A stretch of DNA of 64,000 bases from Rhizobium jaguaris (GTDB taxonomy: Bacteria > Pseudomonadota > Alphaproteobacteria > Rhizobiales > Rhizobiaceae). Below, in pieces: positions 34,176-55,312 of the stretch. The position numbers and the translations under genes were made by a program. The notes beneath the pieces were generated by a model. That model saw only the letters and a list, made by a program, of their open reading frames with translations. It ran no database searches and had not been told where the DNA came from. Position 1 is the stretch's first letter; each line of letters opens with the position of its first letter. The stretch is from the NCBI RefSeq assembly GCF_003627755.1, contig NZ_CP032695.1:2046001-2110000 (forward strand), given 5' to 3'.

Positions 34176-37100
34176 TCAGGCGCCAGCGGTTTGCGTATGG
34201 GTTGCAAGCTGCTCGTCGTGATTGTTGAACAGCACGTGGACGGCATCGTGGCCTGTCGGCGTGTAGTTCTGCAGCGTGGCGACCACATGGGTTTCCGAGC
34301 CGGTGTTGATGCTGATCTTCGTCGAATTGGTTGCGGTATCCACCGCTGCCGTCATCGACGCGACGGCATTCGCCTCGGTCATGCCCGGGTGTTCGCCGAC
34401 CAGTGCGTTCAGCAGGTTCGAAACATCCAGCTTGTCGCCCTCTCCCTTCGGGCTGAAGTCGGTGATGACGTCGGCCATGTTGAGGTTGTGCAGGGCCTGG
34501 GCATCGAGCACGAAAGTATCCGCGCCGGCGCCGCCGGTGATGATGTAGCCACCGCCGCTCGTCAGCGTGTCGCTGCCGTCGGTGCCATAGAGGTGGCCGA
34601 GCCCGCTGAAGTCAATCTCGGCATAGTCACCGTCGTGGCCGAGCGAGAAGTCGCTGGCCGTGTAGTCGCCGGTGAGACCAATGGTGGCGGTGTGGTTACC
34701 GTCGGTGACCGTCAGCACGCCACCAGTTTTCTCAGCGTTTTCCGCATAGGAGAAGCTGGCGGTCGCGGCAGAGATATCGCCGAACCGCAGCGCGTCATTA
34801 CCGTCGAGGCCGGCGATCGTGCCGGTGAATGCGGCCGCGTGGTCGATGGTGATGGTAGCCTGGGCGTCCGTGCTCAGCGTGATCGCCTCGCTGAACGAAC
34901 CACCGATTTCGAGGCTGGCGTGGCCCGACAACAGCGCCGTGCCGCTGCCGCTGACATTGCCCTCGAGATTGATGTTACCGCCATTCGCCCACAGTAGGCC
35001 GTCATTGACGACGCCGCTGTGTATGTCGAGGCCGCCGGTTCCGGTCGCCTCCAGCGTGCCGGTGTTGCTCACCGCGTTGACACCGGTGTCGATGACAAGC
35101 GCGTGGCTGCCGTCGGCAATGATCGTGCCCTCGTTGACCAGCGTCAGGTGACCATCGCCGAGCTGGCCGGCACCGGAGATCGTGTTGTCAACATTGGTCA
35201 GTGTGACATCATCGCCGCTGCCGACGATGACGTTGTGCGCATCGTCGGAGAACGTCATCGTGCCGCCGCCGGTCAGCGTGAGGCCGTGCTGCACGATTTC
35301 GAAGGCCGTCTCGCTACCGGTCGAGGCGAGATGGATGCTGCCGGTGTTGTCGAGTGTGCCGCTGAACGGCAAGAGCGCGCCGTCGCTGAGGACTATGTCG
35401 CCGGTATTGTGCGTCACCACTGCCTCGTTGAAGAGGAAGTCATTCGCGGTGAGCGCTGCGGCGCTGACGCCTGTCAAGGTGATGGTCTCGCCATCGCCGA
35501 GCGTGATGACGGCATTGCCCGACGCGTCGGTCGACAGGTGGGCTTGAACATCCGCGAAGCTATTGAAGCCTGCGAAGCCGATCAGATCGATCTTGTCATG
35601 CGCCGTATCGAAGTTGTGCACGACGTCAGTGCCGATGGTGTTCGCAAAGACCAGCGTGTCGTTGCCGCTCGATGCGGTGAGCGTATCGTCGCCCGACCAG
35701 GCGAAAATCGGCGAACCCTTGGCATAGGCTTCGACGTTGTCGGCCACAGTGGCCATGCCCGTCGAGCCGTCCGCATTGGTCCAGGTCTCGGTGACCTGAA
35801 GAACCAGTGCGCCGGTGGCGCCATTGGGCGACGTGACCGTCAGCGACGACGGATCATTCGTCACCACAGACCAGGTGCCATCGGCATTATGCGTGCCTTC
35901 GCTCAGCGTCCAACCTGCCGGCACTCCGGCAATGCTCAACGTGACCGCGCCAACGTGATGCGACGGATCAGAGAGCGCGAGGTTCATGGCCTCGCCGGAG
36001 ATGCCGGCTGGCTTGAATGTCAACACGTTGCTGTTTGTCCCGGCGTTGCCGGCTAGATCGGTATAGCTACTCCCCGAAACTGAGGCAGACTTCCAGCCAT
36101 TGTTCCAGTTGAAAATATTCGCCGTGTAGATGTCCTGGCCGAAGGCATTCACGCCAACATGCTTGAAGTTGTAGAGCGAGTAATTGCTATCCTGCGTAAC
36201 GTCATTGATGTTGAACCCAGACACTGCCTCGCTGAAGGTGAAGGTCATCACGCCGCTGTTCTGCGTAATGACAAGTGTCGGCGCCGTCGTATCGATCTTG
36301 ATATCATAGGCGCCGCTCGGCGATAGCGGGCTGGTGGTGCCCGCATCCGTGAGTGAGGCCCGGAAGTTATAAGTCGATCCGTTCGTCAGCGTCGGGGTGG
36401 TAATATCGACATACCCATTGCTGATATTGGTCGACGTCAGCGTGACGGCTATGCCGAGTGCGGTCGTGCCGTTATAGAGCTGCACCGTATCACCGCTGAC
36501 AGCACCGGTTTCGGTCAGGCTTACGCGAATACCAAGATTGGTGTCATCCGTAACCGCACCGTCAGCCAGGTTGCCTTGGATCGACCCGACATTGTCGGTG
36601 ACACTGCTGATGCTCGGTGCCGACACGGCCTCGTTGGTGCCGTGGATGGTCACTACGATATCCTGCGAAGCTGTTCCGTCCGCGGACGCTACAGTCAGCT
36701 TATCCGTAACCGTTTGCCCTCCGTTCAAAGCCTGCACATTCGAGGCAGAGTTGTTGAGTGTGTAGCCCCAAACACCGGTCGTCGCATTGAAGGTGAACGT
36801 GCCGTAAGTGCCAGTCAGCGATGCGGGTGTCTGGAAATGGCTCTGACCATTGTCGACGTCGGCAACCGTCAGCACACCATTCGCCGTCAATTGGCCGTCC
36901 TCGGTGACCGAACCGGTCGCCGAGCCCGAGATCGAGGCGGCATCGTTCGTGCCGTTGACCGTCACCACGACCGTCTGCGTCGAGATGCCGCCCTGGCCGT
37001 CGCTCAACTGGACCTTGAAGCTTTCCTGCGGATGATCCGAAGCCGTCAGCGGATCGGCCTTCGACTGATCGAGGAGATAGGTCCAGGTGCCGTTCGCATT

Positions 37101-40100
37101 GACGCTCAGCGTGCCGTAAGCACCCGTAACCGACCCGCTCCCATTGGCAGTCTGGCCGCTGCCCGCAACCACCGACCACGTCAGGGACGTGTTGTCGACA
37201 TCAGCCCCGGTCAGATGGCCGGAAACCGTGTTGTGAGCACTGTCATTGGCAACGCCAACGCCGGCCTCAGTCACGGCACCGCTGGCGCTGTCGCCGCTGG
37301 CGATCGAGATCGTCGGCGCGTCGTTCGTGCCGTTGACCGTTACCACGACAGTCTGCGTCGTGACGCCACCTTGGTTGTCGCTCAATTGAACCGTGAAACT
37401 TTCCTGCGGATGATCCGAAGCCGTCAGCGGATTGGCCTTCGACTGATCGAGGAGATAGCTCCAGGTGCCGTTCGCATTGACACTCAACGTGCCGTAGGCG
37501 CCGGTAACCGATCCGTCTGGATTGCCCGTCTGGCTGCCGGTCGCAACCACCGACCACGTCAACGATGCACTGTCAACATCAGCGCCGGTCAGATGGCCGG
37601 AAACCGTATTGTGAGCGGTGTCGTTGGCAACGCCAATGCCGGCCTCAGTCACGGCACCGCTGGCGCTGTCGCCGCTGGCGATCGAGATCGTCGGTGCGTC
37701 GTTCGTGCCGTTGACCGTCACCACAATCGTCTGCGTCGTAACACCACCTTGGTTGTCGCTCAACTGAACTGTGAAGCTTTCCTGCGGGACATCCGAAGCA
37801 TTCAGCGAATTGGCCTTCGACTGATCCAAAGTATAGGTCCAGGTGCCGTTCGCATCGATGCTCAGCGTGCCATAAGTGCCGGTGACGGACCCGTTCCCAT
37901 TGGCAGTCTGGTTGCTGCCGGCAACCGCCGACCATGTTAACGACGTGCTGTCGACATCAGCCCCTGTCAAATGACCCGAAACTGTGTTGTGAGCGCTGTC
38001 GTCGGCGACGCCAACACCGGCCTCAGTCACGGCACCGCTGGCGCTGTCGCCGCCGGCGATCGAGATCGTCGGCGCGTCGTTCGTGCCGTTGACAGTCACC
38101 ACGACCGTCTGCGTCGTGATGCCACCTTGGTTGTCGCTCAACTGAACCGTGAAGCTTTCCTGCGGATGGTCCGAAGTATTCAGCGAGTCGGCCTTCGACT
38201 GATCGAGGACATAGGTCCAGGTGCCGTCCGCACCGACGCTCAGCGTACCATAAGCGCCCGTAACCGACCCATCTTGACCGGCCGTCTGGCCGCTGCCCGC
38301 AATCACCGACCACGTCAAGGTCGGGCTGTCGATATCAGCCCCGGTCAGATGACCGGAAACCGTGTTGTGAGCGCTGTCGTCGGCAACGCCAATGCCGGCC
38401 TCGGTCACTGCACCGCTGGCGCTGTCGCCGCTGGCGATCGAGATCGTCGGCGCGTCGTTCGTGCCGTTGATCGTCACCACGATGTCATGGGTCGTTCCGT
38501 CAACCGAGGAAACCGTGAACGTGTCGGTTCTGCTCTGGTTTGCACCCAGGCTCTGCACAGCCGACAGGCTGTCATCGACCTTATAGCTCCAGTTGCCGTC
38601 CGCATCGATCGTTAGCGCACCCAGATGCGTACCGTCAGGGTTTATGGTCGCCGCTTGGAATTTGCCTTCGCCCCGATCGGCATCATTGATGATCAACGTG
38701 CCGCTTGCCTGCAGATGACCGTCTGCGGAAACGTTCAGGTCCTCCGTGACGGCCCTGCTATCGGCACCGCCGATCTCCGCCGGGTGATTGACGTGGTCCA
38801 CAGCGATGGTGAAGGCGCCTGTGCCCAATGTCACAGAGTCACCGTCGGAATCCATGGCCTTCACATACTGCGAGAAGTCGAGTGTCTGGTCCTTGGCACC
38901 ATCGATTGTCTGGTCAAGCACGAACGTGGCATGGCCGCTGCTGTCGACCGTCAGTGTGAAGACCGTGGTACCGTTCGCCGAGCCGGTGATCGTATGCCCA
39001 TCCGTGCTGGCGAGGGTGATGGCCGCGCCGTTGTAAGTCAACTCGGTGCCGCCTGTCAGGGTACCGGAAGAGGTACCGGCTGCGACCGCGTTCGCCGACC
39101 AGGTCAATGGGCTGTCGGCACCAGAGTTAACGAGCGAGGTCAGTCCCGCCGTCATCGTTGCGGAGTGTTCGGCGGCTGTCACCACACCATCGTCGGAGAC
39201 GGTTGCGGAAATCTCGGTACCGGTCAGCGTCGGCGTGTCGTCGGCGATATTGAACGTCAGGGTCTCCTGAGCCGTTTTGCCGTTCATATCCGTCACCGTA
39301 TAGGTGAACTGATCCGTGTCTCCCGATGGGTTCGAGCCCGCATGTGTCAGCGTGTAGGTATATGCACCATTCGCGTCGATTACGAGATCACCGTAGGAAC
39401 CGTGGATCGTCGTCGTCTGGCTGTCCGGGGCCGTTTGATCGACGCCTACCGCCGTGCCGTCGGCACCCACAACGCTGGTGATGTGCGGATTGTCCAGGGT
39501 GCCCAGGGCAATGCTGCCCGTGGCTGTCAGTTCAGAAGGCTGCGGGTTGGAGCCATCCGAAAGATTGGCTTCCGACAGGGGCGTTGCATCGACTGTCGGA
39601 GCGAAAACCGTCGGGGCGATGACAGCAGACGTCGTCTGCGTCGCGACATCGCTGAAGCCCTGGCCATCCGTATAGTTCACCGTCAGGATCAACGAATGCC
39701 CGACATCGGCGTTCGTCACCGTGTAGGATGATCCGGTTCCGAGAACCGTATGGGACTGATCGTCCGCCCAGCTCCACGCATAGGTCAGACCGGACTGCCC
39801 GTGATCCGGGTCGTTTGTCGCGATCGCCGCGTTCAGCGTGTCGCCTGCGACGAGCGCTTTGCCCGTATGCGTCGTCTGATCGGCAATCGAGACCGTCGCC
39901 CTGCCGTCGTCAACGGCGGTCACGGTGACTGTCATCGTATGAGCGGCCGACGTGTCGACGCCGCCGTTGGCCGTGCCGCCATTATCCTGGACCGTGAAGC
40001 CGAAGTTCGCGGTTTCGGTCGCGCCGGCAAATCCCGCCGAAGGCGTGAAGTGGAGCGTTGAAAGCGCGCTCGCGGCGATGTGCTGACCGACCGTGACGAC

Positions 40101-43100
40101 TGTCCCGCCAAGATAAAGCGTCCCACCCGTCGGAAGGCTGGTGATGGTGACGGATTTCAGCGTATTGCCATCAATGCTATCGCTGAAGGCGAAATCCTTC
40201 GACGAGAAATAATAGGCCGCATGTTCGCCGGTGGAGACGCTTCCGTCCACCGTGGTCGGCGCGTGATTGACGCCGTCTACCCTGATCGTGAAGGTGCCGC
40301 TGGTTTTGCTGCCGTCGCCGTCGGTGACCGTGTAACCGATCGAGAGTGTCGAGGAGTGGCCGAGCGCCAGGGCATCGAGTGCGCTGCCCGGCGTGACGGT
40401 GACGTGACCGGCGTCGATCGTGACCATGGAGGTGCTCAGCGTCGACCCGACGAGATCTCCGTTGGCGCTGACGCTGTCGACATGGATCGCCCCGCTCTGG
40501 GCCGCTCCGTCGGCGCCGAAGGCGATGGTTCCGGAAGCCAGTGCGAAGGTCGCGCTGCTGTCGTTCTCATGCATCGATCCGACCAAAATGGTGCTTGCGA
40601 TCGGCTTATCATCGGTGATGCTGAAGGTCAGGGTTGCAGTCTGGCTTTCACCGTCAATCGGCGCGTCGCTGACCGTGACGGCGAAGGAGTCATGGTTGCT
40701 CGCCCCGCTCGTGGTGCTCGTCAGCGTATAGGTGTAATTGATGGCCGTCGTGGTGACGCTGAGGATGTGCAGCGTTCCGTAGGCACCCCGAACGGTGGCA
40801 TTGGTATCGCCATTGGCGATTGTGGCGCCGACGTTGAACGTATGGCCTGCGATTGTCACCGTCGAAGGCGCATCGCCTGCGGTGATTGCGATACTACCCG
40901 AATGAACATTGGCGACGCCGGCCGCTCCCGTACCACCCGGCAAGCCGCTTTCGCTGACGCCTGATACCAAGCCGGCCGAAGAGATTGTCGGAAGGCTGTC
41001 CGTGGCCGACTGCACGACGATGGTGACGGAGCCGCTGCCCAGGGTGACAGCATCGCCGTCGAAATCCGTCGCCGTAACGTATTTCGAGAAGTCGAGCGGC
41101 AGCGTTTTGCCGCCGTCGATCGCATGGTAAAGGTCGAATGTGGCGTGACCGCTCGCGGGATCGACAGTCAAAGTGAAGACCGTGACGCCTCCGGCCGAGC
41201 CGGTGATCGTGTGTCCATCCGTGCTGGCGAGCGTGATGGCCGTACCGTTGTAAGTCAATCCGGTACCGCCCGTCAGGTTACCGGAAGACGTTCCACCGGC
41301 AACCGTGTTCACCGACCAGGTCAATGGGCTGTCGGCGCCGGCGTGAACGAGCGAGGTCAGATCTACCGTCGTCTCAGCGGGATCATGGGTGGGCGTCGTC
41401 GTCGTGTCGGTAACATGGATGTTGTCGGCCGTGACTGTCAGTGAGCTGTCATGCGGATCGATCTCGAGCGACGTCAGTTGTTTGCCTTCGAGGGCAGTGC
41501 CGGCGGCCGAGAAGGTCGTACCGGCAGTCGTCACCGAATAGGTGTGGCCTTGCGCATCGGTGCCGATGATCGTGACGGTCTTGGACGACACGCCTTTGTG
41601 GTCAAACACACCTATATCCATCTGGGTGAGGACAAAGGTCGTTCCCGCGTTGGACACGAGCACGATTTCGCCACCCTTGGACGACGAGCCTACCTCACCG
41701 CCGCTGACGGTGCCTTCGGTAACTGTCAGTTTGGCAGCCGCAGGATTCACCGTGTGGAAATCGATCGTGTAAGATGCCGTCGTCACTACGGGAGCATTGA
41801 TCGCCGTTTCCGAGACGGTCGCGGAAACCGTGGCATGATCAACCAGCGTCGGTACATCGTCGATCACATCGACCGTGAAGCTCTGCGTGCCGTTCGTGGT
41901 GTCGCCGTCGCCATCATGGCCAGCAACCTGGAAGGTCAGCTTGATATCCGAGAGGTTGGTTTGACCGTTGACGTCGTCGAGCGACTTGTAAAGCGTGAAG
42001 TTGTAGGCGCCGCTGGCGTGGCCGCTGTCCTGGGACAGGACCACCTTGAAGACCCAGCTCGACTGGTCGGCGGCATTGCTGCCGGTGTAAGCGATGAGCG
42101 TCAAGCCGTCACCGCTGAGTGAGTAGGACAGCGCATGGCCGCCAGAGCTGAGCTTGGTCGCATCAAGCGTCTGATTATTGCCGTAGCTTGCGGTGAAATA
42201 GCTGCCGTTCGAACCCGCTGCGAAGGTGACAGCATGGGCGGCCGGGCCGTCGGCGCCGAAGGCGAGATTGAGCGCAACCGCGCCAGTGCTGATGCCAGAG
42301 GGCGACAGCGAACCCGAATTCGTCAGAAGGTCATGCTCGGCAAGTGTCTTCGTCGATACGGCACCGCCGATCGACGGGCCGTCATCATCGAAACGAATGC
42401 TGCTGCCGATGGAAACGGACTTGGCGACGGTGTCGCCGTCGCTATCGGTCGCGCTCAGCACCGCCGAGAGCTTGCCGGTGAGATCGACCGTATCGCCGTC
42501 CGACTTAGACGTGTTCGGGTTGGCAAGCGACATGTACTGGGCGATGCTGACCTTGCCGCTGTTGTCGAGGCGGATCGCAAAGGCGATCTCGCCGTCTGCA
42601 ATCTTGCCAACGACGGTACCGTCGCCGAGCTGCGAGAGCGTAATCGCCTGACCAGCAGTCGTCTTCAGACCGGAGTCGGCATTGTCGATATGAAGCGTCA
42701 GGCTGCTGGTCGCGCCCGACGCATCGTCGGCGCCCATCGAAACTGACGGAGAGACGACGTTGTGCTGAGCGTAGACCGTCGACATATAGGGATCGGTGCC
42801 GCCAGTTATGCCGGCAAACAGGCTCTTGACCGCATTGCTGGCGTTGACGTCGTTGTCGCCGCTGCCGCTCTCGTCGATCGTGATCGAGCCCGTGAGGGCC
42901 AGATCGACCTTCGGCGTGTCATCAACGATGGTGACCTTCAAAGCGCCGGTCAGCGTCACGTTGTCGCCGTCGCCGTCAGTCGCTTGAATGACGGAACCGA
43001 AGTCGATGGCCGAGATCGAGCTATTGCCCGAGCGCAGGTCGTTGCCGGGACCGGCGACGTTGTCGAGCTGATCGTACTGCTGGAAGGTGAAATTGCCGTT

Positions 43101-46100
43101 GCTAGACAGCGACAATGACAGGACAGGGCGGTCGAGGAGCGGATTGAAGCCGCTGTGGTGGTCATTATCGACATAGCCGATGATCACGTTGTTGACGACG
43201 GCATAGGAGAGCGCTTCGCCACCCGAAGTCAGATGCAGAGCGGTAAGCGTCGACGCCGCATTCGCGGTGAAGCTGAAGCCGCCACCAACCGCTGCGCCGT
43301 CAGCACCGAAGGAAACGGTGGAAGCAACGGAGCCGGATACCGTGGCCGCAAAGCCGAAACCGAACAGTGCGGGCTGCGAGGACGATCCGTCATGCGTGCC
43401 ATCGAGCGCGCTGTTGCCATGCGACAGGAGATTGTAAATGTCGCCCTCGTCGGCCCTGACCGCAACGGTCGTGCCGGAAGCAACCGGGACGTCGTCCGTG
43501 ATGGCAATCGCCAGCGAGCCCTTCGCTGTATCGCCGTCGCCATCCGTGACCGTGAAGCCGAAATTCAGCGTCAGGCCATCTTCGGTCGTCGACGACGTCG
43601 AATGAACAAGCGGCGCATCCGCGGTGAAGCTGTAGGAGCCGTCCGAACCAATCGTCAGAACCGCAACGGTAGCATGGCTGGAGGCGCCGGTTGCCGTCCA
43701 GGTCGTGACACCGTTCGCCGCAGACGACGTCCAGGACACGGCTTCCTGGTGGCCGATGCCGTGGCTGTCGAGGTAGATCGCCTTCAGCGTCGGCAGGCTG
43801 TCCATCGACAGGCTCTTAACGCCATCGGCGCCGGCGGAGAACAGAGCCCCGGCATCGCCGTTGATCGTCTTTGCGTCGGTGGCGCCATCCAGGTTGCCAT
43901 GTGCCTGCGCGTCGTCATTGAGCGGCGTGGAGGTGGTATCAACCTTATAGGCGATTGGTGCATCGTCCTTGACGGTGATCGTCAGCGAGCCACCGGCCGT
44001 ATCGCTGTCACCATCGGTGACGGTGAAGTTGAAGGTCAGATCCTGCGTATTTTCCGCGGTCGGGCTTGCCGCATGGGCGACCGGCGCACTGAGCGTGAAG
44101 CTGTAGGAACCATCCGTGCCGATCGTGAGGGTCGCAACAGTCTGGCCGCTGTCCTTGCCCGTCGCGATCCAGATCGTCTCGCCGCCCGCCGTCGTCGTCG
44201 GGCTGCCCCAAACGACCGACTCGACATGGGCAAAGCCGTCCTTGCCGGTATAGATGGCGCTGAAATCCGTCGTCGCTCCGAGCGTCACCTGATGGACGCC
44301 ATCAGCGCCGCCCGAAAAGAGCGTGCCGCTCGCGCCGCTGACCGTGTCGGTATCGGTCACGCCGACCGTGTCGGGATTTCCGCCCTTCAGCGCGTCGTCG
44401 TTCAGCGTCACGCTGGTCACGGTGACGGTGTTTGCCAGCGGCACGTCATCGGTAACGTGCAAGGTCAGCGAGCCGGCCGATGTATCATTGTCGCCATCGG
44501 TCACCGTGAAGGTGAAGGTCAGCGGCAAGCCTTCTTCCGTTGTGCCGGAGGTCGGATGGACGAGCGGCGCACTGGTGCTGAACGTGTAGGAGCCATCGGC
44601 ATTGATGGTCAGCGTGGCGACGGTCTCGTGATTGGCGCTGGAAGCAACCCAAGTCGTCGCACCGCCGGAAATCGTCGGCTTGCCCCAGGTAACGTCTTCC
44701 TGCTGCGCGAACCCGTTGGCGTCGACATAGATCGTCTTCAGAGCCGGAAGGCTCGACTGATCGATCGAGACGCTTGCAAAGCCGTCGGCGCCAACACTGA
44801 ACAGCGCGCCGGCGGCGCCCGAGACGCTATGCGCGTTGGCGTCGTTGGCATCCAGGTTTCCGCCGATCTGCGCATCGTCATTCAGCGGCGAAGCAGTGTT
44901 GTCAATCGTGTGAGCGACAGGCTTGTCGTCGGCGACGGTGACGGTGAAGGTGTTTGCGGCGGTATCGCCGTCGGAATCGGTGGCCGTATAGCCGAAGGTC
45001 AGTTGGATGGCGTCCGAGCCCTTGGCGTCGTCGAGCGACTGCACCAGGGTGAAGTTATAGTGGCCATTGTCGGTGTCCGATACCGTCGCATAGAAGACGA
45101 TGTTCGAGCCAACTGCGCCCTTGGCATCTGCGACCGCCGTCGGAGCGACGTCGCCGGTATAGCCGACCAGCGTGCCGTCGGCCAGCAGCGCCGTATGAAC
45201 CGCAAGGCCATGCGAGCTCAGTGCTTCGCCATCCTGGCCTTGTGTCGTAACCGACGCATCGGTGAAGGCGACCGAGCGGTCACCGGCGCCGCCCTTGTCG
45301 GTGTTGGCGTTATCGGCACCCCAGGAGATGTTGAGCGAGCCGGTAGTAATCGCATCGGTCTCGACATGCGGGTTCTCGTTGCCGCTCGCCAGAGCGCCTT
45401 CGGTGACCGAGCCTGCATCGCCAGTCGCAGCGACAGGCTTGTCGTCGGCGACGGTGATGGTGAAGGTGTTCGTGGCGGTATCGCCGTCGGAATCGGTGGC
45501 CGTATAGCCGAAGGTCAGTTGGATGGCGTCCGAACCCTTGGCGTCATCGAGCGACTGCACCAGCGTGAAGTTATAGTGGCCGTTGTCGGTGTCAGAGACC
45601 GTCGCGTAGAAGACCACGTTGGATGCGGAAGTTGCCGTCGGAGCGGCCTCGCCGGTGTAGCCGACCAGCGTGCCGTCGGCCAAAATCGCCGTGTGCACGG
45701 CCAGACCGTGCGAGCTCAGCGCGCCGTTATCCTCACCCGTCGCCGAAACTGTGGCATTGGTGAAGGCGACAGAGCGATCGCCGAGGCCGCCCTTGTCGGT
45801 GTTGGCGCTGTCAGCGCCCCAGGAGATGTTAAGTGAACCAGTGGCGGTCGCGTCGCCGGTCGCATGGGTCAGGGCTGCGTTACCGGCAGACAGAGCTGCT
45901 TCGGTAACCGAACCCGCCGTACCAACGGCCGCAACCGGCACGCTGTCCGTGATATCGACGGTCGCGACAGCCGAAACCGTATGGCCGCTCGTGTCGGAGA
46001 CCGTGTACCGAAATTGCAGTTCAAGCACATCGCTGGCCGAATTGGCGCCACGGGAATGGTCGAGGGCAGCGAGCTGGGTGAAAGTGTACTCGCCGGTCGA

Positions 46101-47018: not shown

Positions 47019-47260
47019 AAGTCTAACTCCCGGTGTCTCGTAATGTGGCGCCAATCAATTACGAGAGCGGGATGATTGCAATACTTCGTTAACCTCACCG
47101 ATATAGCCGGTTATGCACGATCGCAGATATATTTACCCATGGTTAACTTAATAACCAAGCAACTCCTTAAGTATACCGCTTGACTTTCTGCCGTTCGCCG
47201 TGTGCAAATGCGCCGCCATAGGCTGTCGCAGCCTGCGTTCGAGAATTGGGGGAGTGAGTT
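47019..47260. promoter_or_regulatory. Divergent promoter region of the adhesin and lipoprotein genes
   Basis: 242 bases between the starts of the leftward adhesin and the rightward lipoprotein gene. An AT-rich part at about 47080-47180 (GATATATTTACC, GTTAACTTAATAACC) is the likely shared promoter and regulatory zone. No operator could be assigned. Confidence 0.5.
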
Positions 47261-48472
47261 GTGCCGTTTGCGAGCAGCCTTTCGTTGAGCCTTTTGACCG
47301 GTTGGCTGCCGCACAGACGGCATTGGCAGCCCGCATGCGGTGCCGTTCTTATCCTCTGCGCTGGCCTCGCCGGCTGCCAGATGGACGGTAGCGGCCTGAG
47401 CAGCAACAGCAAGAACGACGATATAAAAATGCCGTCCACCGCCATCGAAGAAAGCTACGGCGGCGACAGCGGCACGGAAATCACGCTGCTGCTGCGCAAG
47501 GGTGCCGCCGGTCTCTACGAAGGTCCGGCCCGCGACGTTCGCGACGGAGCGGTGCTTGGTGTCGGCGAGCTCGGCAACAATCAGATTCGGCTGCGTGTAA
47601 AGGATGTTGGCCCTGGTCTCGCTGGAATCGCGGCGCAGGTCGCCGCAGCCAAGGGCCGAAATGCCGCGCTTATCGTCAGCTATCTGCCGCCGGGCGAGAC
47701 CGCTGCTATCGCCGCCATTTCCCCCGCCCAGCGTCCACCATTGCTTAACCTTGCAAGTCCGACGGCCACGAGCGGAGGCGATGTCTTCAACCTCGCCTCG
47801 GACGAAATCGATAGCGCGACCGAAGGCGTCAAGGCGGCCGGCCCCGGAGGTCACAAGAAGGTTTCGGCGCTGGTGCCCGCGGATTTTTCTCAATCCGATA
47901 GCACCAGGTTGGGCAACGCCATCTGGAACAGCGGCAACACTTTCATGGGTCTCGGCCGTTACAACACAAGCGATCAGGCCGCTGATATCCTGACCAAGAA
48001 CCAACCGCTCATCCGCTCGGCCGAGATCGTGGTCATTCTCGGCGGTACTTCCGAAATCGGTATGGTGGCGAGTGCAGTGCGCAGCGCCGCCGTTCCCGGC
48101 CAGGCGTTGGTCGGCACCAACAACTGGCCGCAATCGATGTACACGATGCCGACTGTGACGGGCGCGTTTATCGCGACGGACGATACCCAGAGCAGCGGGC
48201 TGATTGCCGAGCGCTATCAGCGCCACTTCAACCATCCGCTGACAACCTCGGGCGCCTACGGCTACGACGCCATGGCTATCGCCTCCGGCCTCATCCGCTC
48301 CCAGGGACCGCAAGCCATGACCGCCGCCAACCTGATGAACAAGGTCGGCTTCCGGGGCACAACAGGGCTCTTCCGCTTCAACGCCACTGGCATGGTGGAG
48401 CGCAAAATGGTGATCAATACGATCGACGGCGGCAAGCTGAAGGTCGCCGCGCAGCCCTCACAATCGTTCTGA
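47261..48472 (+). CDS. Lipoprotein with a type I periplasmic-binding-protein fold (LpoA/amino-acid-receptor-like)
   Basis: The 403-residue product has a polar N-terminal stretch, then a hydrophobic segment and lipobox (AVLILCAGLAGCQMDG), so it is likely a membrane-anchored lipoprotein. The rest resembles ligand-binding receptors of branched-chain amino-acid importers or the LpoA-like penicillin-binding-protein activators (SYLPPGETAAIAAIS, PLLNLASPT, VSALVPADFSQSD, GAYGYDAMAIASGLI). The GTG at 47261 follows GGAG by six bases. No transporter genes accompany it. It is divergent from the adhesin gene and upstream of the LapG-like gene in the same direction. A role in adhesin display or wall passage is possible but unproven. 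Confidence 0.8.
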   Translation: MPFASSLSLSLLTGWLPHRRHWQPACGAVLILCAGLAGCQMDGSGLSSNSKNDDIKMPSTAIEESYGGDSGTEITLLLRKGAAGLYEGPARDVRDGAVLGVGELGNNQIRLRVKDVGPGLAGIAAQVAAAKGRNAALIVSYLPPGETAAIAAISPAQRPPLLNLASPTATSGGDVFNLASDEIDSATEGVKAAGPGGHKKVSALVPADFSQSDSTRLGNAIWNSGNTFMGLGRYNTSDQAADILTKNQPLIRSAEIVVILGGTSEIGMVASAVRSAAVPGQALVGTNNWPQSMYTMPTVTGAFIATDDTQSSGLIAERYQRHFNHPLTTSGAYGYDAMAIASGLIRSQGPQAMTAANLMNKVGFRGTTGLFRFNATGMVERKMVINTIDGGKLKVAAQPSQSF

Positions 48473-48717
48473 AGCAGCCCGACGGCATCGAGCGCAGCGC
48501 GCGTTAGAGCGCGCTGCTGCTGCGTCATCGATTCCCGCACCAGAGCGGATCATTTTTGATGCGCATGGCGACATCATCCTTAATGCTTCCCCACCAAACC
48601 CCGTGGAATTTTATACTTATTTGATCGCTCAATTTATACTTAGATTATCTACGCTTCCGAACCCCATATTCAGAGGTATAGCGCATTATTCTCTCAACCA
48701 GGGAGAAACAAGCGCCA

Positions 48718-49668
48718 ATGGAACGCAAGAAAAATAAAATTATACTTGCAGCATTTGCTGCAACTTCCCTTGCCTTTGGTCTGTCGTCGTCGACCATTTG
48801 CCTGGCGGCGCCCAGCGATACCGTCCGCCCGGTAGTCAACCTGCTTGCGGACCCGCTGTTTGACACAGTCATCGATCTCTTTGCGCCGACCGCCGCAAAC
48901 ACGGCGAAGGCGATCGGGAGCGTCGACCTTGCTGCGCTAAGCCAGAGCCTCGCCGTCGAACCGGCCGGCCTACCAGGTAACGATACGGCTGCACTCCAGC
49001 CGGTACATCCCGCACAGCCGACCAATACCCCGATGGGCGACTCGGTGTTCGGAACCGTGGCCATTCCCTTCAAGCATCTTGCTGCGCTCGACAAGTTCGC
49101 AGGCCCGCTCGCCGAGATCCGGTCCGGCAAAGCGCTCGATTGCGGTGCGGGCGGATGCGACGCAGCCGCAGCCGCCGTTGCAGCGGCCGAGACAAAGACT
49201 GCCGGCGCCTCGATCCGCGACAAGATCAACACTATCAATTTCACCGTCAACCATGCCATCCGCTACGCCAGCGACATGGATACCTATCATGTGACGGACT
49301 ACTGGGCGAAGCCGAGCGAGGCCCTGTCGCGCCAGCAGGGCGACTGCGAGGACTATGCCATATTAAAGATGGCCGCCCTCTACAATGCAGGCGTCGATCT
49401 TGAGCAAATGGCGCTGGTCATCCTCTTCGACCAGCAGCGGCACTTCTACCACGCCGTCCTGTCGGTTTCCGTCAACGGCAACAATCTTATCCTCGACAAC
49501 ATGCGCGATGAGGTTTTGCCCGACAAGCGCATTGCAGAATATCTGCCGCTCTATTCGATCGTCGCCGGCCGCGGCTACCTGCACGGCTCCCGCGATCCTC
49601 ATGCGCAAGCGGTTGTCGCCGCAATGCCGCTCGCCAAGGTGGCCCCCGGCGAAGGCGAGATCCACTGA
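48718..49668 (+). CDS. LapG-like transglutaminase-type cysteine protease (BTLCP)
   Basis: In characterised systems LapG is a calcium-dependent periplasmic protease that clips the N-terminus of LapA-type adhesins and frees them from the cell. The 316-residue protein has a signal peptide (to about residue 30, ..CLAAPS) and the family's catalytic set: Cys210 in QQGDCEDYAIL, His245 in HFYHAVL and Asp260 in LDNMRD. The residues flanking Cys (Asp209, Glu211) are the calcium ligands known from LapG. About 100 residues of low-complexity, Ala-rich sequence between signal and catalytic domain are extra compared with short LapG proteins. Its expected substrate is the giant adhesin 1.7 kb away. No LapD-like inhibitor receptor is found nearby. 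Confidence 0.88.
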   Translation: MERKKNKIILAAFAATSLAFGLSSSTICLAAPSDTVRPVVNLLADPLFDTVIDLFAPTAANTAKAIGSVDLAALSQSLAVEPAGLPGNDTAALQPVHPAQPTNTPMGDSVFGTVAIPFKHLAALDKFAGPLAEIRSGKALDCGAGGCDAAAAAVAAAETKTAGASIRDKINTINFTVNHAIRYASDMDTYHVTDYWAKPSEALSRQQGDCEDYAILKMAALYNAGVDLEQMALVILFDQQRHFYHAVLSVSVNGNNLILDNMRDEVLPDKRIAEYLPLYSIVAGRGYLHGSRDPHAQAVVAAMPLAKVAPGEGEIH

Positions 49669-49729
49669 TTGGACTCGCCTTCTCGACGTTTCGGGACGAA
49701 CTCCGCGCACAGCGACAGTGGCGATATTC

Positions 49730-50383
49730 TCAATAAACGGAAATATAACCAATCAGCATCGGCGCCTCGTGTGCCGGCGCCAACGCCAAGTTGATCTGGC
49801 CCGTCAGCGATTGCGAACCGAGGCCGATCTTGAAGCCGGTGTTCAGCGTCTTGCCACGATTGGCCGACAGGACGGAGAGCACTTCCTCGACCTGGGTGTC
49901 GATAGAAAAGCGCAGGGTGCGCGCCGTCTGCTGGACGTCATCAATCAACGGCAGGCGATGGCGCAGCATCTTCAGGAAGGCATCGTTGAAGAGCTTGATC
50001 CCCCGCTCTTGCGTCAACACCACCGCCGGCGTCGGCGATGCCTGAAGGACTGCGTTGAGATTGGTCAGCGATGCGACATCCTCGATGGCGTCCAAACGGC
50101 TCAGCACCCATTTGAAGCTCAGCACACGCAACAGCGAGGCGAGATTGCCGGTTTCCGGCATGTCGGCCGCCGTGTGGTAAACGAGGTCGCCGATGCTGAT
50201 GCCGCCAGCTTCGGACATCCGTCCGAGGCTGTCCCAGTAGATCCGCTCCAGGCGAACGCCACGGCGCTCGCCGCCGCCAGTCACGGCGCGGAAACGCGGC
50301 TCCAGTTCGTCACCATCGACAGACGGCAAGGCTTCGCTGCGGGCCATCGTCGTGACTTCGTCCTTTCCGGCTACTTTGCGCAT
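49730..50383 (-). CDS. Ribbon-helix-helix plus PAS-like protein in the type I secretion operon
   Basis: The 217-residue protein is soluble. Residues about 35-90 (GVRLERIYWDSLGRMSEAGGISIGDLV, split here by function, then NLASLLRVLSFKW) fit an RHH_4-type ribbon-helix-helix. Residues about 100-217 (ASPTPAVVLTQERGIKLFNDAF, ending PMLIGYISVY) look like a degenerate PAS domain. The ATG at 50383 follows GAGGG by five bases; a GTG at 50395 overlaps the HlyD stop (GTGA). Either way the gene is tightly coupled to the secretion adaptor gene. It may be a sensor-regulator of adhesin export; this is inference, and the PAS assignment is weaker than the RHH one. Confidence 0.7.
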   Translation of the reverse strand: MRKVAGKDEVTTMARSEALPSVDGDELEPRFRAVTGGGERRGVRLERIYWDSLGRMSEAGGISIGDLVYHTAADMPETGNLASLLRVLSFKWVLSRLDAIEDVASLTNLNAVLQASPTPAVVLTQERGIKLFNDAFLKMLRHRLPLIDDVQQTARTLRFSIDTQVEEVLSVLSANRGKTLNTGFKIGLGSQSLTGQINLALAPAHEAPMLIGYISVY

Positions 50384-50391
50384 GGCCGCCC

Positions 50392-51693
50392 TCACCGTTC
50401 CGTCAGCGCTTCAGAGCGCGCCTTGTTGATCGGCTTCATCAGATAGGTGAGGATCGCCTTGCGGCCGGTCATGATCTCGGCCGAAGCCACCATGCCGGGT
50501 ATGATCGGATAGCGCTTGCCGTCGCGCTCCAGCTCCGACTTGTCGGTCTTGATGCGCACGAGGTAGTAGGTCTCGTTCTTGTCCTTATCGACAAGGCTGT
50601 CGGCAGATACGTTGACGACCGTACCGTCCAGCGCACCAAAGATCGAGAAATCGTAGGCCGAGATCTTGATGACTGCCGGCTGGCCGACGCGCACGAAGGC
50701 GACGTCGCGCGGCGAAATCTTCGCCTCGATCAGCAGAGTGTCGGCTGTCGGCACGACGCCGGCGATGACCTTGCCGGCATCGACATAGGCGCCGATCGTA
50801 TTGACCTCCAGCGTGTTGACGATGCCATCGACCGGGGAACGAATATCTGTATGCTTGACCCGGTCGGATGCCCCACGGATCGTCTCGTCAACGACGGACA
50901 GCTCCGACAGTGCCTGCCCCTTGTCGGTCAACGCCTGCTGGCGCAGCTGCAGCCCGAGGTCGTTGACCTGCAGCGTCGCCTCTTTGACGGCCGCCTGCAG
51001 GCGATCCAGACTTTCGACATAGACTTTAAGCTGACCCTGCAGGTCGACCAAGTCTCGCTGGACCTTCAGCACTTCGGTTTCGGCGACGAGCTTCTTCTCG
51101 CCGAGCGGCTTCAGCAGATCATACTGCTTCTGGGCACCGGCGATATTCTGCGTCAGGCGGTCTATGTTGGCATGCGCCTCGTCCAGCTCGTTCTGATGCT
51201 GCTTCAAACGCTGATCGAGAACATCAAGCTTGTTCTGGTAGGCGGCACGATCCGCCTCGAAGAGCTTTTCCTCGTTGTCGCAGACGTCCTTGGCGGTGGC
51301 CAGAATATCGGCTGGGCAGACGAATTGTGCGTCGTAGGTGCCTGCTTCTTCCAAGGCGAGGCGCTCAACCTTGGCACCCAGAGCGCGGGCCTTGGCCACC
51401 GACTCACCAAGCGTCGATTGCGTCGTGGTATTGTCGAGCTGCACCAGAAGATCGCCCTTATGGACGACCTGACCAAGATTGACATTGATCTGCTGGACGA
51501 TGCCGGGCTCGGACGACTGTACGATCTGCGTCTTCGATACCGGTATCACCTTCCCCTCGCCTCGCGCGATCTCATCGATGTCGGCCAAGGCCGCCCAGGC
51601 GATGAAGGCGGCGATCATCAAGGCACAGATACCGAGGATCAGCCGGGCGAAAAATGGAGGATTGTCGTGGATGTTGCGACGATGGGTACGCAT
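50392..51693 (-). CDS. Type I secretion membrane fusion protein (HlyD/LapC type)
   Basis: The 433-residue periplasmic adaptor links the inner-membrane ATPase to the TolC-like channel. It has one N-terminal membrane helix (ARLILGICALMIAAFIAWAA), a biotinyl-lipoyl-like half (EGKVIPVSKTQIVQSSEPG), long coiled-coil hairpins (about residues 95-270) and the returning beta-barrel part (IRSPVDGIVNTLEVNTIGAY). The ATG at 51693 overlaps the ATPase gene stop by one base (TGATG). Part of the leftward operon TolC-ATPase-HlyD-RHH/PAS. Confidence 0.94.
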   Translation of the reverse strand: MRTHRRNIHDNPPFFARLILGICALMIAAFIAWAALADIDEIARGEGKVIPVSKTQIVQSSEPGIVQQINVNLGQVVHKGDLLVQLDNTTTQSTLGESVAKARALGAKVERLALEEAGTYDAQFVCPADILATAKDVCDNEEKLFEADRAAYQNKLDVLDQRLKQHQNELDEAHANIDRLTQNIAGAQKQYDLLKPLGEKKLVAETEVLKVQRDLVDLQGQLKVYVESLDRLQAAVKEATLQVNDLGLQLRQQALTDKGQALSELSVVDETIRGASDRVKHTDIRSPVDGIVNTLEVNTIGAYVDAGKVIAGVVPTADTLLIEAKISPRDVAFVRVGQPAVIKISAYDFSIFGALDGTVVNVSADSLVDKDKNETYYLVRIKTDKSELERDGKRYPIIPGMVASAEIMTGRKAILTYLMKPINKARSEALTER

Positions 51694-53846
51694 CAGGGCA
51701 CCGCCTTGCGCTGCATCGCCTCGATGACGGCGTTCTTCGGTCCATCGGCAATGATGCGGCCCTTGTCGATGACGATCAGCCGATCGACCAGCTCCAACAT
51801 GCTGTGGCGATGGGTCGCCACCATCAGCGTTGTTTCCGGACCGAATGCACTCGTCAGCTTGTTGATCAGGTGCCGTTCGCTCGCCAAATCCATCGCCCCC
51901 GAGGGCTCATCGAGGAAGACGATCTTCGGCCGGGTCAGGAGCAGGCGAGCGATGGTCAATGCCTGCTTTTGGCCATTCGAGAGGTTCGCGCCGCGCTCGC
52001 CGACCGGCATGTCGAAACCGCGCGGGTGAACGGCGACGAATTCCTCGACACCGGTCATACGCGAGACGGCCAGAAGCTCCTCGTCGCTGGCATCGGCCCG
52101 GCCGAGCAGCAGGTTTTCCTTCACCGTGCCGGAGAACAGATCCGACGACTGGCCGGCGACGGCCACCGCGGCGCGCACTTCAGCCATGTGATACTGGCGG
52201 ATATCGACGCCATCGATCAGCACGCGACCGCTGGCCGGCTGAAAAAGCCCGTCGAGCAGCCGGCCGAGCGTCGTCTTGCCCGAACCGATGCGGCCGATAA
52301 TCCCGATCCTCTCGCCGGGCATGACCGTAAAGGACAGCCGATTGATGACCGACTGGTCGGAACCCGGATATTGGAAAGAGACATTCTGGAAGCTGAACCC
52401 GCCACTGCGGATCTGCCGATTGACGAAGCCGACAGTCGACGGGCGGTCATCGGGCTGTTCCATGATCTTATCGAGAATGCGCAGCGACATGGTGGCCTGG
52501 CGGAAGCGCGCCAGTGTCATGGCGATCTGGCCGAAAGGCGCGCCGGCGCGGCTCGCCAGCATGACGGTCGCGACGATCGCGCCCATGGCAATTTTTCCAT
52601 CGGCGAATTCATAGGTGCCCGCCACGACGATGAACACACTAACCATCTGTTGCAACAACATCGTCAAGTTGATGGCGTTCGACGAGATGTGCTTGATGTC
52701 CTCGCTGGTGCGGCTCGAATATTTCGTCAGCTCCTGCCAGCGGCGCAACATGGTCGCCTCGGCGCGAAGGCTCTTCAATGTCTCGATCGTCGAAATCGTC
52801 TCGACGAGCATCGACTGGCGACGCGATGCTTCATTCGTCGCAGTCGCCATACGCTTGCCGATCTGCGCCTGGGCCACGAGGCCGATTACGACGGACAGAA
52901 CGAAAGCAACGGCCGGGATGACGACCAGCCAGTCGGCGATCATATAGATGACGATCAGGAAAATGACGACGAAGAGGCTGTCGATCAGCACGCCGATCGT
53001 GTTCGAGGTGAAGAATTCGCGTACGAATTCATATTGCGTCACGCGGTTGGCATATTCACCTGTCGACATCGGGCGGGAGGCTAGCGTCGAATTCAGGATC
53101 TTGTCGAAGATCAGCTGCGACAGACGCATGTCCGCCTTGCGGCCGGCATAGTCGATCAGCGACGCGCGGGCCGTCTTCAGCAGGAAATCGAAGAGATAGG
53201 CCAGGGAAATGCCGGCCGTCAGCACCCAGAGCGTTGGGAACGCCTTGTTCGGCAACACGCGGTCGTAGACGTTCATGGTGAAGAGCGGTGAGGCCAGCGC
53301 GATGATGTTAATAAACAGCGCCGCCAGCATGACGCGAGCATAGGTGCGCCAGTAAGGCACCAGCGTCGTCGCCAACCAATGACGCTTCTCGATCTCCATC
53401 GCATGACCGACGCGCGCTTCTTCCGAAGCATTCTGATAGAAGAGCGTGAAAGCAAAGGCGGCCTGCGGATTGAGCGCGGCCAGCTCTTCTCGCGTCAAGC
53501 GAAGCGGCGCCCCGGCTGTTGACGCGATATCGATGACGTAGGAGCCATTTTCGGTCATTTCGAGCAATGGGAGCACGCCGCCACCGGCAAAGGTGACGAT
53601 GGCGGGACAGTCGAAATTACCCAGCCGGCAATCGCGCTCTTTGTGCTTCAGCACCTGAAGGCCGACGCGCTCTGACAGCCGCTCGACATCGTCCTGCTCC
53701 ATTGCCTCCAGAACCTCGTCCGGAACGCCCGAAAACAGCACGGTATCGGAGCTCGGGCGACCGTAAAACGCGGCGACCGATTTAAATGCCGATTTAAACG
53801 TCTGCAGCGATACGCTCGCAGACACCTCAGGTGCCACGTTCAACAT
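51693..53846 (-). CDS. Type I secretion permease/ATPase (LapB type)
   Basis: The 717-residue inner-membrane exporter has an N-terminal C39-peptidase-like domain without a catalytic cysteine at the expected place (about residues 1-150, as in exporters of RTX adhesins), six membrane helices (about 170-440), and an ATPase domain with Walker A GRIGSGKTT, signature LSNGQKQ and Walker B IVFLDEPSGAMD. The Asn in the signature in place of the first Gly of LSGGQ occurs in this subfamily. It starts 29 bases after the TolC-like gene. Expected cargo: the adhesin at 34176-47018. Confidence 0.94.
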   Translation of the reverse strand: MLNVAPEVSASVSLQTFKSAFKSVAAFYGRPSSDTVLFSGVPDEVLEAMEQDDVERLSERVGLQVLKHKERDCRLGNFDCPAIVTFAGGGVLPLLEMTENGSYVIDIASTAGAPLRLTREELAALNPQAAFAFTLFYQNASEEARVGHAMEIEKRHWLATTLVPYWRTYARVMLAALFINIIALASPLFTMNVYDRVLPNKAFPTLWVLTAGISLAYLFDFLLKTARASLIDYAGRKADMRLSQLIFDKILNSTLASRPMSTGEYANRVTQYEFVREFFTSNTIGVLIDSLFVVIFLIVIYMIADWLVVIPAVAFVLSVVIGLVAQAQIGKRMATATNEASRRQSMLVETISTIETLKSLRAEATMLRRWQELTKYSSRTSEDIKHISSNAINLTMLLQQMVSVFIVVAGTYEFADGKIAMGAIVATVMLASRAGAPFGQIAMTLARFRQATMSLRILDKIMEQPDDRPSTVGFVNRQIRSGGFSFQNVSFQYPGSDQSVINRLSFTVMPGERIGIIGRIGSGKTTLGRLLDGLFQPASGRVLIDGVDIRQYHMAEVRAAVAVAGQSSDLFSGTVKENLLLGRADASDEELLAVSRMTGVEEFVAVHPRGFDMPVGERGANLSNGQKQALTIARLLLTRPKIVFLDEPSGAMDLASERHLINKLTSAFGPETTLMVATHRHSMLELVDRLIVIDKGRIIADGPKNAVIEAMQRKAVP

Positions 53847-53875
53847 GGAGTACTATCCAATCCGGATCGCGACGA

Positions 53876-55312
53876 TTAACGAATCGGCTCGAGCAGATCC
53901 ATCGGCAGGCCAGGCTTCTGATGCGAGTCGTATTTGACATAACCGGGATCAGCCGTGTTCGACGACACGCCAAACTGATCACGGGCATAAGGCGTTGCCT
54001 GCTCGACCGGCTTCAGCTTCATCGTCGACAATAAACTGCCCGATGCGGCGAGGATCTTGTATTCGGCAAAGAGCGAAGCGACGTCCGCCGTCTTGGCCAA
54101 AACCTCGGTATTGAAGCGGGTGTTCTGGGCATCCAACAGATCGAGTAGCGAGCGCTGACCGACCTTGAACTGCTCCCGATAGGACGTCACGAGCTGGGCG
54201 TTTGTCTTCTCCTGCCCGTCCAAGATATGCGCTAGCTGGGCCTGATTGGTGCGCTCGCTCCAGGCGGAACGAACAGACTGATCGACTTCACGATAGCTCT
54301 GGCTCAACGCGTAACGCTGTTCGGCGGCGCGACGGACCAGTTCCTGCTGATGGGCAGTATCGATGCCGCCGTGATAGAGGTTCCATTTGGCAACGACACC
54401 GACCTGGACGTCGTTGGTGTTACCCTTGTTGCCGTCAACATCGTCACCCATGCGGGCGCTGCCGACAAAATCCAACTTCGGCAGGAAGGCCGCCTTGGAA
54501 CCACGGACATCGGCGTCAGCGGCATTGACGTCAGCCTTACCTGACGAAATCTGCGGATTATTCTTTTGGGCGATGAAGACGGCGTCATCCAGCGTCTTCG
54601 GCAGGTAATGCGCCACGGAGACCGGACGCTGCGCATTGCTGATCGGCTCGCCGACCACCTGAAGGTAGCGGATCTTCGTCGCATCCAGTTCCTGCTTGGC
54701 TTCCTGGAGGCGGGCATTGGCTGCTTGCAGGCGCTCGCGGCCCTGAAAACGGTCGGCATCCGTAAGGGCGCCGCCCTTGATGCTATCCTCGATGTTGCCG
54801 ACCATCTGCTTATGGAAGGCGACGTTCTTTTCCGCCGCGGAGACGATTTCCGTCTGCAGTAGATATTCGAGATAGTCTTGCGTCACTTCAAGCGCCAAGG
54901 CTTCCGAGCGCTGCTGGACGCGAAAGGATGCGCTGTCGACCCGAGCTGCCTGCTTGTCCTTCTGTGCCTTGCGATCGCCGCCGTCAAACAACGTCTGCGT
55001 AATAGTCAAGCTTACATCAGCCGGATTCAGGTAATCCGTGGTAGACTTCAAAGCTCCGGACGTGGTGTCTGACAGTCTACGGCGACCATAACCTGACTCC
55101 AGATCGACAGATGGCAAGTAAAGTCCCCGCGCCTGGCGCAATTCGAACTCTGTCGCCTCGCGATTCTGGGCAGCCTCCATGATCTGCGGATTGGTCTTCA
55201 TTGTCTTATCAATTGCCTGCTGCAATGTCGTAGCATAAGCGGCACCGCTCGATAAAGAAGCAATGGCGACTGAAGTGCCGATCGCCCGAATCAATCGCTT
55301 TCCATAGGTCAA
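53876..55312 (-). CDS. TolC-family outer-membrane channel (LapE/AggA type)
   Basis: The 478-residue outer-membrane exit duct has a signal peptide (KRLIRAIGTSVAIASLSSGAAYA), the TolC repeats with LQQAIDKTMKTNPQIMEAAQNREATE split over the first helices, and the conserved VGQRSLLDLLDAQNT near the C-terminus. An in-frame stop lies seven codons upstream and there is no ATG or GTG before the signal peptide, so the start must be the TTG at 55312 (or an ATT one codon earlier); GAAGG is eight bases upstream. First gene of the secretion operon. A rare start codon may limit its translation. Confidence 0.92.
   Translation of the reverse strand: MTYGKRLIRAIGTSVAIASLSSGAAYATTLQQAIDKTMKTNPQIMEAAQNREATEFELRQARGLYLPSVDLESGYGRRRLSDTTSGALKSTTDYLNPADVSLTITQTLFDGGDRKAQKDKQAARVDSASFRVQQRSEALALEVTQDYLEYLLQTEIVSAAEKNVAFHKQMVGNIEDSIKGGALTDADRFQGRERLQAANARLQEAKQELDATKIRYLQVVGEPISNAQRPVSVAHYLPKTLDDAVFIAQKNNPQISSGKADVNAADADVRGSKAAFLPKLDFVGSARMGDDVDGNKGNTNDVQVGVVAKWNLYHGGIDTAHQQELVRRAAEQRYALSQSYREVDQSVRSAWSERTNQAQLAHILDGQEKTNAQLVTSYREQFKVGQRSLLDLLDAQNTRFNTEVLAKTADVASLFAEYKILAASGSLLSTMKLKPVEQATPYARDQFGVSSNTADPGYVKYDSHQKPGLPMDLLEPIR

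Follow-up and report, generated by a model that had tools for sequence, protein, structure and literature searches.

The stretch of DNA analysed here, called the window throughout (64,000 nucleotides, G000:C2:2046001-2110000), comes from the 8.03-Mb genome of Rhizobium jaguaris (G000), whose nearest named relatives belong to the Rhizobium tropici/leucaenae group (R. mayense, calliandrae, leucaenae, freirei, tropici and others). It carries a cluster of genes for a giant adhesin, the type I secretion system (T1SS) that would export it, a Peptidase_C93 (C93) protease, a lipoprotein, and a protein with a ribbon-helix-helix (RHH) domain followed by a PAS-like domain (RHH-PAS; Table 1). With the Pseudomonas Lap system (LapA, LapB/C/E, LapG, LapD) the cluster shares the giant T1SS adhesin, a putative N-terminal retention module, a three-part exporter and a periplasmic C93 protease; control of LapG by LapD is treated in PMC4359373. 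An earlier reading made from the sequence alone had assigned seven genes to this cluster, and all seven were confirmed in place. The exporter operon reads tolC, abc, mfp, RHH-PAS on the minus strand, and its LapB-, LapC- and LapE-type components scored above the cut-offs of all three NCBIfam models (TIGR03375, TIGR01843 and TIGR01844), which verified the types given by that reading.

Adhesin and C93 protease

The description of the adhesin as a giant protein, probably of the retained type, agreed with the analysis. Its 4292 amino acids contain 13 T1SS-143 stretches, 7 VCBS stretches and a T1SS C-terminal domain (TIGR03661), and its N-terminus resembles a retention module. When the N-terminus was aligned with those of 24 relatives, the pattern LPxxTSIDxIxVxGxNLVLxQxDGTxIVI...PTFxIGDVxxP was followed by a helix-like stretch and, in most rows, by xVA(A/E/F)GPDG, after which SSGxNF came in many of the 25 rows. 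The putative cleavage site in this motif read AAG in 11/25 rows, AFG in 7/25, AEG in 5/25 (the window adhesin and four near relatives) and none of these in 2/25. Substrates of LapG and DvhG are described as having a beta-strand retention domain, a targeting helix, a DP motif and a [T/A/P]AAG scissile site (PMC13090378), and the layout found here (retention domain, helix, cleavage motif, the last being AEG in the window) resembles that description. Judged from these sequence features, the adhesin is a probable substrate of the C93 protease.

The protease, previously read as LapG-like with an intact Cys-His-Asp set, scored 76.3 bits against PF06035 (Peptidase_C93, cut-off 27) and 76.2 bits against the NCBIfam LapG model NF045674, below that model's cut-off of 320, and is therefore named LapG-like here, a C93 protein but not a LapG equivalog. 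C210, H245 and D260, together with the D-C-E-D stretch at 209-212, were invariant across 21 aligned cluster C93s, in agreement with the earlier description, and we take D-C-E-D to hold the acids of the calcium site. Cys-His-Asp was also retained when the window C93 was aligned with 10 LapD-adjacent LapGs and 6 short C93s. Four of these six were the window genome's own; by PF06035 the genome encodes five C93 proteins, of which the window's scores lowest. What sets the cluster C93s apart from the LapGs and the short C93s is an extended N-terminal region, together with an FGS-like motif, a pair of Cys residues and a tail of the PGEG kind.

A 50-row tree placed all 24 cluster C93s in a single clade (100/99) and gave LapG, with 10 rows, and the short type, with 6, a clade each; 7 of 10 other T1SS-linked alphaproteobacterial C93s were nearest the cluster clade (93/87) and 3 lay elsewhere. 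This tree and the one described below carry long-branch warnings. The possibility that the window C93 is an ordinary short paralogue was ruled out by its grouping with T1SS-linked C93s. A second alphaproteobacterial arrangement, in which a C93 gene lies beside a T1SS membrane fusion protein (MFP) gene, was seen at 10 loci (L276-L284, L291), and the stretches examined there gave no match to RHH-PAS, the lipoprotein or the degenerate GGDEF protein (dGGDEF) described below.

Conservation of the gene block

Window-type C93 genes (>290 bits) were present in 18/37 genomes of the genus, the window genome counted. Of 29 C93 matches in named records, 25 were orthologues with 50-92% identity (20 labelled Rhizobium, 5 labelled Rhizobiaceae or Rhizobiales only); the four weak matches (L082-L085), where the cluster genes were absent save for partial ATP-binding cassette (ABC) transporter matches, were excluded from the Rhizobium counts. 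Loci with a C93 50-62% identical to the window's are referred to as clade B and are set apart from clade A, to which the window genome belongs. The lipoprotein gene adjoined the C93 gene in 25/25 orthologous loci, inverted in one clade with adjacency kept, and RHH-PAS with at least part of the MFP gene was found in 24/25, the exception lying on a 6.2-kb contig.

The sample of the order comprised 297 genomes. A C93 profile scored above 200 bits in 18 of them (next best 178), and a single-sequence search with the window protein found full-length RHH-PAS, both domains covered, in 20, beside T1SS genes in 20/20 copies. In all 18 genomes with cluster-type C93, RHH-PAS is encoded in the same gene region as C93; G091 and G115 have it ~14 and ~19 kb from C93, just past the adhesin gene. 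RHH-PAS occurred without cluster-type C93 in G101 and G285. The cluster-type lipoprotein (>285 bits, next 236) was found in 15/18 cluster genomes and 0/279 others, and its broader relatives are widespread (some match in 252/297). Profiles A2, A4 and A5 include rows from several of the counted genomes, a circularity of which the single-sequence RHH-PAS search is free; the order genomes surely outside these profiles are G171, G115 and G091 for A2, G050, G104, G140, G171, G263, G282 and G299 for A4, and G000, G104, G140, G171, G243 and G263 for A5. The neighbourhood check that the sequence-only reading had called for was thus favourable, and conservation with the cluster excludes the lipoprotein and RHH-PAS genes as chance neighbours. 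The gene block is very probably a conserved functional unit.

Table 1. Features of the adhesin cluster, with positions in the window
Feature	Position	Strand	Description
Giant T1SS adhesin, 4292 amino acids	34176..47054	-	T1SS-143 and VCBS repeats; N-terminal module, helix-like stretch, VAEGPDG
TATACTT, adhesin-lipoprotein intergenic	47169..47175	-	Candidate operator or promoter element; 18/19 clade-A upstream regions
Lipoprotein, lipobox LAGC-Q	47261..48472	+	Type I periplasmic-binding / LpoA-like fold (predicted)
Two TATACTT, 23 bp apart, upstream of C93 gene	48612..48641	+	First copy in 19/19, second in 16/19 clade-A regions
Peptidase_C93 (BTLCP) protease, LapG-like, own clade	48718..49668	+	PF06035
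RHH_4-PAS protein, last gene of exporter operon	49730..50395	-	4-nt overlap with MFP gene
HlyD-type membrane fusion protein, LapC-like	50392..51693	-	TIGR01843, 384 bits (cut-off 209)
LssB-type T1SS ABC transporter, LapB-like	51693..53846	-	TIGR03375, 778 bits (cut-off 693)
TolC-type outer membrane channel, LapE-like	53876..55312	-	TIGR01844, 263 bits (cut-off 225)
Two TATACTT upstream of tolC	55355..55570		One copy in 11/17 relatives

Search for LapD and a degenerate GGDEF protein

Release under a separate control without LapD had been proposed from the sequence, together with the absence of any GGDEF or EAL gene from the cluster; none was found there in the window. The LapD_MoxY_N model (PF16448) gave no match in the window genome, and none in 14 control genomes. 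As a positive control, it matched in 83/299 genomes of the phylum, with strong matches (78-163 bits, open reading frames mostly of 640-700 amino acids) only outside the class and weak ones within it (<=41.7 bits, 15 genomes). For the weak match in G230, the LapD profile covered positions 109-231 only, without the GGDEF/EAL part. A LapD profile built from nine proteins returned 34 matches in the window genome (14 GGDEF-EAL, 13 GGDEF only, 5 EAL only and 2 in the HAMP region), and the LapD output domain was covered by none of them, 0/34 starting before profile position 159. The genome-wide search suggested by the sequence-only reading thus found no LapD. The part of its proposal that concerned LapD stood, but a system apart from GGDEF proteins was not supported, as described below.

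One of the 14 GGDEF-EAL proteins might nevertheless be a LapD that has diverged beyond recognition in its periplasmic domain and uses that domain to control C93. The number of such proteins in the genome leaves room for this; in Desulfovibrio a receptor unlike LapD, DvhD, performs LapD's job (PMC13090378), and at one cluster locus (L063) a GGDEF-EAL gene lies ~0.6 kb from tolC. Set against these points, neither PF16448 nor the LapD profile detected an output domain, and L063 was the only one of the cluster loci examined with a full GGDEF-EAL match, so that we regard a divergent LapD as improbable.

The GGDEF protein associated with the cluster is small and carries two hydrophobic segments, joined by a short loop, and a single GGDEF domain (5 cluster-type copies). 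PF00990 scored above its cut-off in 5/5 dGGDEF copies tested, the copy of the window genome reaching 68.2 bits (cut-off 23.8). That copy is intact (252 amino acids, G000:C2:111714-112523, L272:9998-10756) and lies outside the window, unlinked on the same contig, ~2 Mb from the cluster along the contig or 0.6 Mb if the replicon is circular. Its motif region reads RSGD-LVARL-ATNEL, the GG(D/E)EF active motif being lost. Copies scoring >200 bits have ATNEL, ASNEL, GETEF, SDHSF, GTSMF or GASMF, and RxxD stands five residues ahead of the motif in every such copy with a readable region, a spacing that we assume to be the canonical one for an inhibitory site (I-site) before a GGDEF motif. One copy (L051) is truncated, without a readable motif. 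In relatives that score lower, most of which come from cluster-free genomes, the motif reads GGEEF or GGDEF. In a tree of 57 rows, degenerate and intact-motif proteins were split at a 100/97 branch with one row excepted, L236 (motif read PAVAF), which stands among active proteins and is probably a misread of the pattern.

Among the 37 genus genomes, C93 and dGGDEF were both present in 17 and both absent in 18 (Fisher 1.9e-8, kinship uncorrected), and all 10 order genomes with dGGDEF >200 bits fall among the 18 cluster genomes. A GGDEF-like gene close to tolC came up in many relatives when their loci were scanned with the LapD profile. In clade B, dGGDEF is divergent from tolC and 140-218 bp away in 14/14 loci (12 distinct records) that extend at least 700 bases past tolC. 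Clade-A copies lie 640-870 bp from tolC in L043 and L067 (same strain) and in L064; for the rest of the 19 clade-A loci that extend at least 2.3 kb past tolC, L059 and L063 have other GGDEF genes near tolC and 14 have none. The gene is also near tolC in L141 and L142 (another Rhizobiaceae genus) and L143 (another family), and within ~1 kb of the lipoprotein gene in G171, G243 and G104. Seven clade-A genomes keep C93 and dGGDEF far apart, either by at least 270 kb (G000, G018) or on different contigs (G004, G006, G013, G020, G024). The idea that the system has nothing to do with GGDEF proteins was ruled out by the position of dGGDEF near the cluster in relatives and by the co-occurrence. The simplest reading of the sequences is that dGGDEF is a cyclase turned receptor; a role as receptor of cyclic di-GMP (c-di-GMP), for which the RxxD I-site would be the binding site, we put at even odds.

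Genes for other c-di-GMP proteins were seen at this place in two genomes of another family: an EAL-domain gene beside the cluster C93 in G091 (L286:5200-6693) and a GGDEF-like gene beside the cluster C93 in G189 (L148:11589-12167). In G021, dGGDEF lies near another T1SS-like ABC-MFP pair (L287, G021:C10:38688-58687).

Candidate routes of control

The reading that we prefer, at a probability of roughly 0.6, is a two-step, Lap-like adhesin locus with LapD-free control, in which dGGDEF would be the point of entry for c-di-GMP. By homology and anatomy, the giant adhesin would be threaded via the exporter through TolC and kept plugged there by its N-terminal retention module. C93 would then free the adhesin by cleaving it at V-A-E-G, a variant LapG site that follows the targeting helix, while RHH-PAS would serve as a sensor-regulator of the cluster's own promoters. 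In Rhizobium, c-di-GMP would most likely enter via dGGDEF, both the binding and the partner being predicted. Lacking a periplasmic domain, dGGDEF should be unable to hold the protease as LapD does. Instead of sequestering it, dGGDEF would have to work from the cytoplasm, with the exporter or RHH-PAS as its target or the lipoprotein as a go-between. Release dependent on C93 and control by c-di-GMP are what we infer from these features. A fuller version is offered tentatively, as less likely than not. In it, a former cyclase with two transmembrane (TM) helices, its active site gone and its I-site retained, would have turned into the cytoplasmic receptor of a Lap-like locus, an independently evolved control that targets the exporter or RHH-PAS, the lipoprotein closing a periplasmic circuit.

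Several observations weigh against this reading. The AEG site of the window adhesin differs from the [T/A/P]AAG consensus. The overlap of profiles A2, A4 and A5 with the counted genomes and the shared ancestry ignored by the co-occurrence values limit what the counts can carry. dGGDEF >200 bits is present in only 10/18 order cluster genomes; in four others (G091, G184, G189, G236) the best relative is weaker, with an intact GGEEF motif, and a further four have none at E 1e-20. Within the genus, G021 has dGGDEF without C93 and G003 (82% complete) C93 without dGGDEF. The gene stands beside tolC in only 3/19 clade-A loci (at least 2.3 kb past tolC) and is unlinked in the window genome. An unusual motif also need not make a GGDEF protein inactive, as AGDEF in VCA0965 shows (PMC3974145).

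The lipoprotein, described earlier as binding-protein-like, gave no Pfam or NCBIfam match to the protein itself; a lipobox is present, and an AlphaFold2 model (predicted local distance difference test score, pLDDT, 80) has the type I periplasmic-binding fold, which supports that description. Its Foldseek neighbours were leucine-binding proteins (best E 6e-16) and the LpoA C-domain 3ckm (TM-score 0.76 by target). All 22 aligned rows keep the lipobox Cys, followed by Q, S or T, which by the E. coli rule presumably points the lipoprotein to the outer membrane. A role as partner of the protease or exporter is possible, though we would not expect it. In a stronger form of this idea the lipoprotein substitutes for LapD, sequestering C93 in a ligand-dependent manner, so that release would answer an outside signal and not c-di-GMP. 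The adjacency of its gene to C93 in all 25 orthologous loci, in either orientation, the restriction of the cluster-type form to cluster genomes, the predicted ligand-binding fold and the proximity to dGGDEF in G171, G243 and G104 are all in keeping with such a role. Outside Rhizobium, however, the gene often adjoins the adhesin or RHH-PAS and not C93; the cluster-type form is missing, at that score, from cluster genomes G189, G301 and G319; and the likeness to LpoA, a regulator of peptidoglycan synthase, suggests an envelope role over protease control. We consider a LapD substitute unlikely.

RHH-PAS scored 37.3 bits against RHH_4 (cut-off 25) and 19.8 against PAS_8, under the cut-off of 21.8. 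Its AlphaFold2 model had a pLDDT of 70, and the C-terminal half matched PAS domains weakly (Foldseek best E 4e-4). The overlap of its gene with the exporter operon, reported earlier, proved correct, as did the RHH assignment. Because it is predicted to be cytoplasmic and DNA-binding by fold, RHH-PAS is more likely to act on transcription. A related RHH-PAS family is present in other orders. When the 10 best RHH-PAS-like matches outside the order (the window's own excluded) were checked with their flanks, 2 lay near T1SS genes (G593, G657), 3 near GGDEF-EAL genes (G741, G337, G834) and 5 near neither. RHH-PAS relatives at L325, L327 and L328, in another order, have a large GGDEF-EAL gene in their vicinity, which hints that RHH-PAS proteins are more widely linked with c-di-GMP signalling.

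The motif TATACTT, which was picked after looking and was not preset, occurs seven times in the window, at 37829 (in the adhesin gene), 47169, 48612, 48635, 48741 (just inside the C93 gene), 55355 and 55564; 100 shuffles gave a mean of 0.85, and none reached 7. In another genus a single copy was found in the C93-adhesin gap of 5/7 loci (L135-L139; not L141, L142), and clade-B upstream regions mostly lacked it. TATACTT may be an operator for the RHH protein or a promoter element. These data bear on a further alternative, in which there is no post-translational switch, C93 is constitutive or set by calcium, and release is timed by RHH-PAS through transcription of adhesin, exporter and protease. 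RHH-PAS is the most consistently linked partner, TATACTT is common to the regions upstream of the adhesin/lipoprotein, C93 and tolC genes as well as to the gap in the other genus, dGGDEF is absent from most of the cluster genomes found outside the family, and HvyA, another alphaproteobacterial C93 protein, is regulated in its transcription and translation and by its instability (PMC4241560). Control by transcription alone would leave the linked dGGDEF and lipoprotein unexplained, however, and the motif, found post hoc and possibly a plain promoter element, was present upstream of dGGDEF in 0/18 cases. This alternative is somewhat less doubtful than the LapD substitute, and we still consider it unlikely beside c-di-GMP entry through dGGDEF.

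The locus differs from Pseudomonas Lap in several respects: LapD was not found, RHH-PAS and the lipoprotein are extra, dGGDEF is degenerate and lacks a periplasmic domain, C93 stands in a clade of its own and is extended in its N-terminal region, and the putative cleavage site is AEG. The Dvh system of Desulfovibrio (DvhA, DvhG, DvhD) likewise combines a LapG-family protease and an adhesin with a controller that has no relation to LapD (PMC13090378). It differs from the present locus in that DvhG is membrane-anchored and in that DvhD, a receptor of the dCache-HD-GYP type, has a periplasmic domain, whereas dGGDEF consists of two TM helices and GGDEF only. HvyA-type BTLCPs of Alphaproteobacteria resemble the cluster protease in fold (Peptidase_C93) and in catalytic residues; in Caulobacter, HvyA acts to restrict the capsule (PMC4241560). 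The four other short C93s of the window genome and two others, called HvyA-type by size in a tree without HvyA itself, form a clade apart from the cluster C93s. Rhizobial DDxP adhesins are, as here, large adhesins linked with T1SS clusters and BTLCP genes (PMC7730722). LapD-like genes are reported in the clusters of Bradyrhizobium and some Mesorhizobium (PMC7730722), whereas the cluster loci examined here showed no LapD output domain, and RHH-PAS and the lipoprotein are not mentioned in the available part of that account. A literature search by title and abstract start turned up no paper describing this gene set, which is weak evidence given that subscription journals were mostly outside its coverage; PMC5588039 and PMC4018554 provided context only.

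How LapG-type proteases are controlled is understood for Gammaproteobacteria, where LapD does so, and lately for Desulfovibrio, where DvhD does; other functionally analogous systems of controlled adhesin display may await identification (PMC13090378). The present set is conserved among rhizobia that fix nitrogen and also in several further families of the order, and it comes with a specific receptor candidate, which makes LapD-free control testable by single-gene deletions. Root attachment and release bear on nodulation and on the competitiveness of inoculants.

Adjoining tolC and reading away from it is a gene for a tail-specific protease (Prc, 56114-58234), which was rejected as a cluster partner, having no match in the cluster stretches of relatives. 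Two short C93 genes (G000:C2:2129061-2129537 and 2133091-2133576, L054) lie ~4 kb apart with an ABC gene near, ~19-24 kb past the window.

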